Source: Clostridiales bacterium
GTDB taxonomy: Bacteria > Bacillota > Clostridia > Christensenellales > Borkfalkiaceae
DNA: 64,000 bases
Assembly: GCA_015069285.1 (NCBI GenBank)
Contig: SVIX01000003.1
Coordinates: 1 to 64,000 of the forward strand
Direction of reading: 5' to 3'
Part shown: positions 4,668-49,537 of the stretch, one piece after another
How the letters are laid out: the number at the start of each line of letters is the position of its first letter
Numbering within the stretch: the stretch's first letter is position 1
Notes under the pieces: generated by a model
The model's input: the letters and a program-made list of their open reading frames with translations, nothing else
Told to the model about the DNA's origin: nothing
Database searches by the model: none
Program-made: the position numbers and the translations under genes

Positions 4668-4724
4668 ATATATAATCTAAATTTTATAAAGGCAACGACG
4701 GGAAAAAATCCGTAAAATCCGAAA

Positions 4725-4962
4725 AATAAGCAGAGAGCCGACGGTAGGTGCGAGTGGGCGCGGAATACGGAATATAGCTCATCCCCGAGCCTCCGAGAGA
4801 ACGGCGGAAACGCTAAGTAGATTCGGACGGATATCCACCGTTATAGGGATAGTCTTTCAAAGGACACGAGCGGACGGGAAACCGTCAAATAGAGTGGTAC
4901 CGCGGAGCGTCAAAACTTCGTCTCTTTGCGTGCGTTTTTAACGCGCGGAAAGAGATTTTTTT
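4725..4962 (+). ncRNA. T-box leader (tRNA-sensing riboswitch), probably tRNA-Leu
   Basis: Stem I AGAGAG/GGTAGGTGCGAG features, CATCCCCGAGCCTCC candidate specifier region (CTC=Leu), the conserved T-box AGAGTGGTACCGCGG, and a terminator TCTCTTTGCGTGCGTT..AACGCGCGGAAAGAGATTTTTTT (4921-4962) upstream of leuA. Confidence 0.9.
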
Positions 4963-24378: not shown

Positions 24379-24808
24379 AAAAAAACACCGCTCCTTTAGA
24401 GTGATACTCTTAACGGAGTATCACTCTAACTCTATTCGCCTTCGGCGAGTTCTATTGCTACGCAGTGATATTCGGCTTACGCCGAGTGATATTTGCTACG
24501 CAAGTTTAGGGCGAATAGAATATCACTGAAGCCACAAGGCTTCAATATCACTGTCGCTGTGCGACAATATCACTCTTTGCGTCAGCAAAGAATATCACTT
24601 TATAACAACAGAAAAAGAGATAACGTTTCGACAAACACGATTTGTTATCTCTTTCTGTCGTTATAAGAACCTGCTACGCAGAACCTTGTTATTTGCTTCG
24701 CCTTAGCCCATTTGTATTTGACCGGTCAAATGCGATGCTCGCACTTAGTAGAGTTTTCAAATTCTCCGCTAAGAACATCAGCCCTTTTCCAAAAGAGCGG
24801 TGTTTTTT
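24379..24808. repeat. Family B hairpin-array element, copy 1, bounded by an outer terminator-like inverted repeat
   Basis: outer AAAAAACACCGCTC / GAGCGGTGTTTTTT; inside, many small hairpins with AGTGATATT (left arm) and AATATCACT (right arm) linkers; fills a convergent junction. Confidence 0.85.
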
Positions 24809-34110: not shown

Positions 34111-34566
34111 AAAAATAACGCCTCCCTGATATGCGTGATACTCTTAACGGAGTATCACGCATAACTCTATTCGCCTGCGGCGAGTTCTATTGCTACGCAG
34201 TTATATTCGGCTTACGCCGAGTGATATTCGCTACGCGAGTTTTTAGGCGAATAGAATATCACTGCGAGGCGAAGCCCTGCAATATCACTTCCCGTCAGGG
34301 AAATATCACTCTTCGCGTCAGCGAAGAATATCATTTTTAGTACTAACAGAAAAAGAGATAACATTTCGGCGAATAACCGATTTGTTATCTCTTTCTGTCG
34401 TTATAAGAACCTGCTACGCAGAACCTTGTTATTTGCTTCGCTCATAATAAGGGTTTGGGCTTAGCCCGTTTGCGTTTGACTAGTCAAATGCGATGCTCGC
34501 ACTTAGCGGTGTTGTTCAAATTCTCCGCTAAGAACATCGCCCATAAAAGGGAGGCGTTGTTTTTTT
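34109..34566. repeat. Family B hairpin-array element, copy 2
   Basis: outer AAAAAAATAACGCCTCCCT / AGGGAGGCGTTGTTTTTTT; internal array alignable with copy 1; convergent clpB/yitT junction. Confidence 0.85.
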
Positions 34567-47461: not shown

Positions 47462-48229
47462 ATGCAAAAAGTAGTCATTTGCGGTGTGGACACGACGGGG
47501 TTACCCCGTTTATCAGCGAAAGAAAACGAGGAATTGATGTGCAGGTTAAAAAACGGGGACAAAAGAGCGCGCGACGAGTTTATCGTGGGGAATATGCGAC
47601 TCGTATTATCGCTCGTCAAACGCTTTCGCATTAAAAATTTAGGCGTGGACGACGTGTTTCAAGCCGGTTGCGTGGGTTTGATAAAAGCAATCGACGGGTT
47701 TGATATTAGCGTGGGCGTAAAATTTTCCACCTACGCCGTGCCGATGATTGTCGGTGAAATAAAGCGTTATCTTCGCGACGGAAATTCGTTGCGCGTTTCT
47801 CGGTCTATCCGCGATACGGCGTATCGTGCGCTTAAAGCAAGAGAGGCGATAGAAAGCCGTGACGAGGAGGCGACGATTGCAAAAATCGCCGAGGAAATGC
47901 AGGTCGCTGAACGCGAAGTAGTGTACGCGCTCGACGCTATTTCCGACCCCGTTTCCATTTACGAACCCGTATACAATAAGTCGGGCGATACGCTACTACT
48001 CATGGACCAGCTTTGCGACGAAAAGAACACGGACGAAATTTGGACGGAGCACGTCGCTTTAAGCGAGGCGATAGGAAAACTTGGGGAGCGGGAGAGGAAA
48101 ATTTTATATCTTCGTTATTATCAAGGCAAAACGCAAACGGAAATCTCCGAGGAAGTGGGGATAAGCCAAGCGCAAGTATCCAGATTGGAAAAAAACGCGT
48201 TGACGAATATCCGACAAAATATTTCTTAA
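47462..48229 (+). CDS. sigG: RNA polymerase sporulation sigma factor SigG
   Basis: start moved to ATG 47462; MQKVVICGVDTTGLPRLSAKENEELM, GCVGLIKAIDGFDISVGVKFSTYAVPMIVGEIKRYLRDG. Confidence 0.9.
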   Translation: MQKVVICGVDTTGLPRLSAKENEELMCRLKNGDKRARDEFIVGNMRLVLSLVKRFRIKNLGVDDVFQAGCVGLIKAIDGFDISVGVKFSTYAVPMIVGEIKRYLRDGNSLRVSRSIRDTAYRALKAREAIESRDEEATIAKIAEEMQVAEREVVYALDAISDPVSIYEPVYNKSGDTLLLMDQLCDEKNTDEIWTEHVALSEAIGKLGERERKILYLRYYQGKTQTEISEEVGISQAQVSRLEKNALTNIRQNIS

Positions 48230-48237
48230 AAATAAAG

Positions 48238-48628
48238 AAAAACGGCTTGGGCAAGCCGAGTCCCTGCAAGGGATTCGGCAACTAAATAAATCCGTGGACG
48301 GATTTGTGATATTTGTCTAAAGACAAGTGATATTGCTACGCAGTTATATTCGCCTTACGGCAGTTATATTGCCTTACGGCAGTTATATTCGCCATATGGC
48401 GAGTTAAGGATTTATTTAATATAACTTTGACTGCAAGTCGCAATCTAACGCAAAACTTGTTTTGCATATCACTTTTAGCCACAAGGCTAAAAATATAACT
48501 CATATATGTTTAATCTTTTGTGGATATGAAAAGCACACTACATTTCACTTTTAGTGAAGTATAGTGTGCTATACTTTTATTATGAACAAAAATTCCTTAA
48601 TAGGAACTGCCTAAACCAAGCCGTTTTT
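48238..48628. repeat. Family B hairpin-array element, copy 3 (diverged)
   Basis: outer AAAAACGGCTTGG / CCAAGCCGTTTTT; inner AAATAAATCC/GGATTTATTT; AGTTATATT and ATATAACT/ATATCACT-linked hairpins; convergent sigG/araC junction. Confidence 0.75.
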
Positions 48629-48642
48629 GCGTGCGTAAAGTT

Positions 48643-49437
48643 CTATTTTCGTAAAGAAGACGGGTTCACGTTTGCGAGCGTTAAAAAGGTACGGTTAAAG
48701 GAACGGACGCTTTGGAAACCGCTTTCCATTGCAATTTCCAAAAAGGTTTTTTTCGTCGTTTTTATTAAATGGCTTGCAAACTCTAAACGGTATTGGTTGA
48801 CGAACGTTTTAAAATTGACGTGAAAGGCTTTATTAAATACACGCGAAAGGTGCTCGTGACAATATCCCAAATCTTTAGCCGTCGAGCGTAAGGTGATATT
48901 CTTTTGGAAATTTTTTTCCACGTAGAGAATTAACTCGCTGATAAGAGAATATTTTCTCGGCGAAGGGATGAGTTCGTTCTGCTTTAAAAAATCGTCGCAG
49001 AGGGCGTATAGACAGGCTTTTAAAGGAAGTTCGTCGGGCATTTTTACAGAAACGGAAACGGGGTAGGTCGGTTGCGTTAAGAAGGTTTTTTTGATAAACG
49101 CTTGCGTTTCTGCGCTAGGCAATAGCTTAGCGGATAATGCTTTTTTATCCTTTACGATATTCGCAAACGACGAGATAAACGAATCGGAGAAAACGATGAT
49201 AAGACATAAACAGGTTGCGTCTGCTTGATAGGAGTGCAACTGATAAGGAAAAAGTAATAAAGCCTCTCCGTTTGTTAAATTGTATTCCGTATCGTCGACT
49301 TTCGCGTTTAGCGTTCCCTCTAAAACGAAAGTAAATTCGTATCCCTTATGGATATGCGTGTCGTAAAAAATCGAACGGTAAACGCAGGCGTTAAAAATGT
49401 TGTTTCCGATTGTATTGTGCGGTTGATGAAAGAACAT
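48643..49437 (-). CDS. AraC-family transcriptional regulator
   Basis: cupin N-terminal domain plus C-terminal HTH (DLGYCHEHLSRVFNKAFHVNFKTFVNQYRLEFA...ESGFQSVRSFNRTF). Confidence 0.85.
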   Translation of the reverse strand: MFFHQPHNTIGNNIFNACVYRSIFYDTHIHKGYEFTFVLEGTLNAKVDDTEYNLTNGEALLLFPYQLHSYQADATCLCLIIVFSDSFISSFANIVKDKKALSAKLLPSAETQAFIKKTFLTQPTYPVSVSVKMPDELPLKACLYALCDDFLKQNELIPSPRKYSLISELILYVEKNFQKNITLRSTAKDLGYCHEHLSRVFNKAFHVNFKTFVNQYRLEFASHLIKTTKKTFLEIAMESGFQSVRSFNRTFLTLANVNPSSLRK

Positions 49438-49537
49438 AGCGCTCCCCTCTAAAAAAATCAATTTATGGCTAATATTATACAATTTATTGCGAGAAAAGTC
49501 AAATAAAAAATGCTATAATAAAGAAAAGGAGTAAGAA

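Follow-up and report, generated by a model that had tools for sequence, protein, structure and literature searches.

The locus under study lies in a 64,000-nucleotide stretch of DNA (hereafter the window) from a 1.41-Mb genome assembly of 77 contigs that is 76%-complete. It follows sigG, a sporulation sigma factor gene on the forward strand (47462-48229; NCBIfam SigG model, E 1.5e-111, just above the cut-off), and precedes an AraC-family regulator gene on the reverse strand (48643-49482; AraC-family NCBIfam matches, all below the cut-off). The 391 bp at 48238-48628 comprise a gene-less element of about 361 bp (48255-48615) and two outer arms that are, as described below, the halves of the sigG terminator; since the AraC-family gene is convergent with sigG, this split terminator sits between converging genes. 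We refer to the elements related to the copy at 48255-48615 as family B, and to the sister elements at 24.4 and 34.1 kb of the window as family A. The latter occupy 24394-24794, in the terminator AAAAACACCGCTC/GAGCGGTGTTTTT, and 34130-34543, in the terminator AACGCCTCCCT/AGGGAGGCGTT, both on the forward strand. The window also contains a T-box leader match (4686-4928), whose 86.8 bits fall a little short of the gathering score of 93.

All the pieces named in the preliminary description were recovered (outer arms of 13 bp with perfect complementarity, an inner frame, hairpins, and AGTKATATT/AATATMACT linkers), and they are ordered on the forward strand as follows. The left half of the split terminator, an A-tract and stem of sequence AAAAACGGCTTGG (48238-48250), is followed by GC (48251-48252), which formed the left side of the terminator loop before insertion, and by AA (48253-48254), the probable left copy of the crossover dinucleotide, which is matched by AA on the other side (48614-48615, with 48613-48614 equally possible). 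The element starts with a subterminal hairpin, GCCGAGTCCCTGCAAGGGATTCGGC (48255-48281), kept across copies, and continues with a hairpin-linker array matching the Rfam family Gut-1 (48279-48354; RF01706, 44.1 bits against a gathering score of 50, E 1.6e-7). The inner frame has its left arm, AAATAAATCC, at 48284-48293, visible in the sequence and kept in the copies, and its right arm, GGATTTATTT, at 48408-48417, likewise visible; between 48326 and 48399 are the linker AGTGATATT and three AGTTATATT linkers with hairpins between them, the number of units differing among copies. The right array (48418-48501) contains the inverted linkers AATATAACT, ATATCACT and again AATATAACT, with their hairpins. 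Further along, a long hairpin AGCACACTA...TAGTGTGCT flanked by A and T tracts (48530-48579) forms part of the predicted fold and is a possible internal bidirectional terminator; a simple scan for terminators did not pick it up. The right end of the element, ATTCCTTAATAGGAACTGCCTA (48590-48613), repeats the left end imperfectly and in inverted orientation and is also kept across copies, and the right half of the terminator, CCAAGCCGTTTTT (48616-48628), closes the locus.

The linker motif AGTKATATT occurs 19 times in the window, where 0.9 occurrences would be expected, and 75 times in the whole genome (the reversed pattern, used as a control, 31 times). As 59 of the 75 matches fall within 11 tight clusters, random occurrence can be discarded, and the proposed association of the linker with hairpin arrays holds. 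The proposal that the region folds also stood up, since the segment 48230-48632 is far more stable than its shuffled versions (z = -9.4; 0 of 100 shuffles as stable). A DNA search of the same genome detected relatives of the interior on contigs C2 (94% identity over the aligned parts), C77 (84%) and C53 (78% and 74%), together with a fragment located where a contig ends. The element had been taken for the third copy of the family at 24.4 and 34.1 kb; this assignment is incorrect, because the ends differ and the element has its own relatives elsewhere in the genome. Both families display the traits of MITEs (short length, absence of genes, several copies and sharp common ends), with terminal inverted repeats that are clear and of about 20 bp in family A and imperfect in family B. 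Another hairpin-linker array with AGTTATATT is found at a contig end (G000:C40:27325-27478), with ends unlike those of either family.

When the family B copies are placed side by side, the interior is common to them and the outer inverted repeat is not: the arms are AAAAACGGCTTGG/CCAAGCCGTTTTT here, AAAACCACCGATT/AATCGGTGGTTTT at C2 and AAAAAGAAAGGAAATCG/CGATTTCCTTTCTTTTT at C77. In each of these three they consist of an A-tract, a stem and a T-tract, that is, an intrinsic terminator opened at its loop. Among 13 family B insertions from several genomes, the arms are complementary (score of at least 8) in 10, versus 8 of 156 pairings obtained by permuting the same flanks. Further, deleting the element and one AA in silico restores a 13-bp stem with a GCAA loop. 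Since the arms differ by copy and excision rebuilds the terminator, we rejected the outer frame as a part of the element, and it is close to certain that the window copy was inserted into a terminator. The preliminary description was thus right in seeing a terminator-like frame and wrong in seeing a conserved part of the element, as the frame is a pre-existing host terminator. The local alternative hairpin that it noticed in the left outer arm, CGGCTTGGGCAAGCCG, does exist, because the conserved left end of the element (GCCGAG) happens to complement the terminator arm of the window.

The sigG orthologs of the same genus provide a comparison at the target itself. Many of them end in plain terminators; these come from different species, not from strains of the host, and are therefore orthologous terminators and not strain-level empty sites. 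In genome G032, directly after the sigG stop codon, we found AACGGCTTGGC-AATAGT-GCCAAGCCGTT followed by T, with a stem nearly that of the window copy. The sigG ortholog region of G014 has the plain terminator AAAAACGACTTGG-AAAAT-CCAAGTCGTTTTT, and sigG of G013 has AAAAAAGCTTGG-TTTTAG-CCAAGCTTTTTT. At three other insertion points, most of the regions fetched from relatives contained hairpins accompanied by A and T tracts (L395 and L404; L402; L406-L408), while regions L400, L401 and L403 had none. A different and divergent element, with linker GTGAAATT, is located in the sigG terminator of another species (L115, G036:C31), which could mean that the site is a hot spot or that the insertion is old. 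At one other locus (L084, G045:C3:49551), a truncated element has the target sequence ACACCTTATCTATTA on both sides, an odd rearrangement of the terminator.

Gut-1 was published as a noncoding RNA of no known function, known only from human gut sequences (PMC2864571), and is made of three hairpins joined by GUGAAAU-type linkers (Rfam RF01706; PMC2864571). Judged from model matches, the hairpin-linker array is the Gut-1 motif of Rfam. It was detected in 19 of the 20 family B loci examined, three of which exceed the gathering score, and in 7 of the 8 family A loci, one of which does, the sister elements that exceed 50 bits being L369 (59.8), L351 (56.0), L044 (51.7) and L102 (51.0). The five Gut-1 matches of the 64-kb window all fall within its three elements, which also have in common the hairpin-linker architecture reported for them. 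In family A, including both window copies, the two arms of the element match Gut-1, on opposite strands.

Family A allowed us to define the target more precisely. Its ends are (T)AGCGTGATACTCTTAACGGAG... and ...CTCCGCTAAGAACATCRCCC, and a scan of contigs with this end yielded 80 readable loci, all of them in Clostridia, Oscillospiraceae or Ruminococcus MAGs, mostly from gut. The flanks of 41 distinct insertions follow a common register. Counted from the repeat, an A/T core occupies positions 5-6, its distance to each end being constant; a GC-rich stem spans about 8-16; and an A-tract (A in 37-38 of 41 at positions 20-21) is mirrored by a T-tract on the opposite side, both some 15 bp away from the core. 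Of the 41, 28 have outer arms with a score of 10 or more, versus 0.05% of permuted pairs. Serine recombinases leave a 2-bp duplication at the crossover. In 37 of the 41 family A insertions the two sides carry an identical core dinucleotide, with 17.4 expected from composition, and as read from these alignments it is a 2-bp duplication; it can be TT, AA, AT or TA, with no restriction to TA. For family B, the best core offset gave 7 of 13 identical pairs where about 2 would be expected; this offset was chosen post hoc as the best of 49, and the duplication is therefore only suggestive.

The linkers of family A vary in a coordinated manner. In 19 of the 22 elements with repeated linkers, which fall into three types (AGTGATAT, AGTGAAGT and AGTGATGT), the left linker is the reverse complement of the right one, which shows that the entire array changes in concert. 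In addition, the linker AGTGATGTT is similar to the beginning of the terminal repeat, GTGATGTTC, which gives the array the look of a series of partial recombinase half-sites. The concerted change may reflect binding sites, selection at the RNA level or palindrome-templated correction. The second of these possibilities would give the array a role visible to the host beyond mobility, selection on the RNA keeping the split terminator working, and the position of the element just downstream of a stop codon is in line with it. It would also agree with the predicted pairing of the outer arms around the array, with a probability of about 0.95; however, shuffled interiors leave this pairing just as likely (0.94), so that folding alone does not need the array, and we discarded the idea that the array is needed to bring the terminator arms together. 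Given that palindrome-templated correction could also explain the concert, we regard such a host role as rather unlikely. A purely RNA reading is weakened by the opposite-strand Gut-1 matches of family A as well as by the indifference of arm pairing to shuffling.

Candidates for the enzyme were found next to family A-type ends. A 686-bp family A-ended version in G005 retains, beside its end, the C-terminal part of a large serine recombinase (DUF4368), and a search based on this remnant led to a complete element of about 11.7 kb in G141:C52 (L296, L292). Both of its family A-type ends lie in a split stem, GCCCCGAC/GTCGGGGC; a 556-aa recombinase is encoded at one of them, and type III restriction-modification genes are found at the opposite one. 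No other autonomous element had its two ends on a single contig. Immediately downstream of their genes, related recombinases of G035, G018, G024, G066 and G095 also show a family A-type end, in most cases followed by a T-rich half-terminator; in total, seven recombinases or remnants of this clade adjoin such an end, while homologs at 40-47% identity have none at that place. The proteins of G141, G095 and G024, all from family A-type elements, contain Resolvase, Recombinase, Zn-ribbon and DUF4368 domains. Type I restriction-modification genes are present in the serine-recombinase element of G095:C5 (L350), and this element and that of G141:C52 are, by their gene content and ends, what may be called terminator-inserted defence islands. 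Longer family A-ended loci carry other cargo, encoding DMP19-like, HAD phosphatase and GNAT plus DUF559 proteins and an unknown 125-aa protein; the single-cargo relatives (L137:1704-2623, L191:2349-3439, L213:722-2058 and L147), of which L137 and L191 are clearly in split terminators, look like cassettes without a recombinase of their own. From these associations, we infer that family A is quite likely mobilised in trans by this clade of DUF4368 recombinases.

The extension of this mechanism to family B, which we favour with less assurance, would be by likeness of target, structure and core. Among the recombinase loci fetched, none had family B ends, and the serine recombinases of G000, G013, G018, G036, G048 and G116 had neither family A nor family B ends in the loci fetched. 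No partner recombinase for family B was found; in G045, a 94% complete genome with many family B copies, PF07508 proteins are absent. We also considered as a partner a 13.9-kb element of G061 that has a TCCCTATGG end, and rejected it: what looks like its left arm is located within an ORF, and the resemblance is thus due to chance. These negative results with family B ends would also fit a different mover, be it an IS630/Tc1-type enzyme that duplicates TA, a Y1/REP-type enzyme acting on the hairpins or an unknown one, in which case the serine-recombinase elements would merely share the landing site. The hairpin arrays do recall REP/BIME units, and one RAYT-like gene lies within a family A-ended element, but no RAYT gene bordered by these hairpins was found. 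DDE_3 proteins are absent from all ten carriers examined (0/10) and the family A core is not strictly TA, which led us to reject the IS630/Tc1-type; the resident Y1 transposase gene of G000 is of the IS200-type, without these ends, and was rejected too. Since, moreover, the ends are common to family A and to the DUF4368 recombinase elements, we consider another mover improbable. The RAYT-like gene and its remnant occur within family A-ended elements (L150, L194) that have REP-like GTAGGGGCGAAC palindromes. Finally, that the whole 391 bp with its outer arms would be one structured RNA or regulatory unit, with an outer stem covarying among copies, is very improbable: its very stable fold, the paired outer arms of the predicted ensemble and the publication of Gut-1 as a probable RNA are in its favour, but the outer arms are unrelated in sequence and length among copies, Gut-1 matches occur on opposite strands of family A, and the existence of orthologous arms without the element, as plain terminators at the same gene, largely refutes it.

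Altogether, the locus probably contains a gene-less, MITE-like mobile element that entered the loop of the sigG terminator and would be mobilised in trans by a serine recombinase. In the mechanism that we propose, the terminator would offer a natural dyad (A-tract, stem, WW core, stem, T-tract) used as an attB site; large serine recombinases with DUF4368 would mobilise small elements in trans; and insertion at the centre of the loop would have split the terminator, whose arms, A and T tracts included, now form the outer frame. Such an insertion would be tolerated because it falls outside genes and because the arms could still pair around the folded array. For family B the recombinase step is extended by analogy and designates a candidate enzyme class only. 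More broadly, and with a moderate degree of confidence, terminators could be the natural attB class of a multi-targeting DUF4368 clade that moves restriction-modification islands, cassettes of one gene and a numerous population of mini-elements among gut Clostridia, the orphan Gut-1 RNA being a piece of those elements and no independent RNA gene. If true, this would account for an RNA family left orphan since 2010, give a biological meaning to the A-rich/core/T-rich motif of multi-targeting serine recombinases, now tools for genome engineering, and provide a serine recombinase with miniature partners mobilised in trans. Terminators are abundant, dyad-symmetric and extragenic sites, and landing in them would be a safe-haven strategy in which host terminators become reservoirs of mobile DNA, with restriction-modification as full-size cargo.

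How do these elements compare with known systems? The DUF4368 domain marks a clade of multi-targeting large serine recombinases (Durrant et al., PMC10083194), and the target motif of one of them, Cp36, runs from an A-rich 5' part through an AA core to a T-rich 3' part (PMC10083194). Compared at the level of motif, this layout is that observed here; the proteins of G141, G095 and G024 share the domain set of the Cp36/TndX-like clade, which likewise uses many target sites, although the recombinases described here form a distinct clade with its own ends. We predict, by analogy, that the attB sites of Cp36 are terminators. The word 'terminator' is absent from the main text of both PMC10083194 and PMC13137831, miniature derivatives are not described in PMC10083194, and our search for literature on terminator-targeting elements, with subscription journals mostly outside its coverage, returned nothing on point. 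IME_Rho_tet and comparable elements (PMC12904643) also have a serine recombinase near one end and terminal inverted repeats of about 21 bp, but this family integrates mostly in small MAFF2 genes, not in terminators, and carries relaxase and tet genes.

Group IIC introns, which are retroelement ribozymes, insert beside a terminator hairpin and also have intrinsic terminators as landing sites; we obtained no Rfam intron match here. With REP/BIME units and their RAYT transposases, our elements share arrays of small palindromes with linkers, yet in ours it is the stems that vary, the linkers being constant, and the array enters terminator loops as one unit whose ends are conserved. MITEs (reviewed in PMC10969869) are also short, gene-less, multicopy and intergenic, with terminal inverted repeats; the present elements differ in a partner that is probably a serine recombinase and not a DDE transposase, in their landing site in the terminator loop and in the long hairpin-linker array of their interior. 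As to Gut-1, full-length model matches occur in nearly every element of both families, but what was published as a stand-alone RNA restricted to the human gut is here one arm of a mobile element lodged in terminators, extends to ruminant gut Clostridia and, in family A, lies on both strands. The new points here are the targeting of terminator loops, the likely serine-recombinase partner of family A and the identity of the array with Gut-1.
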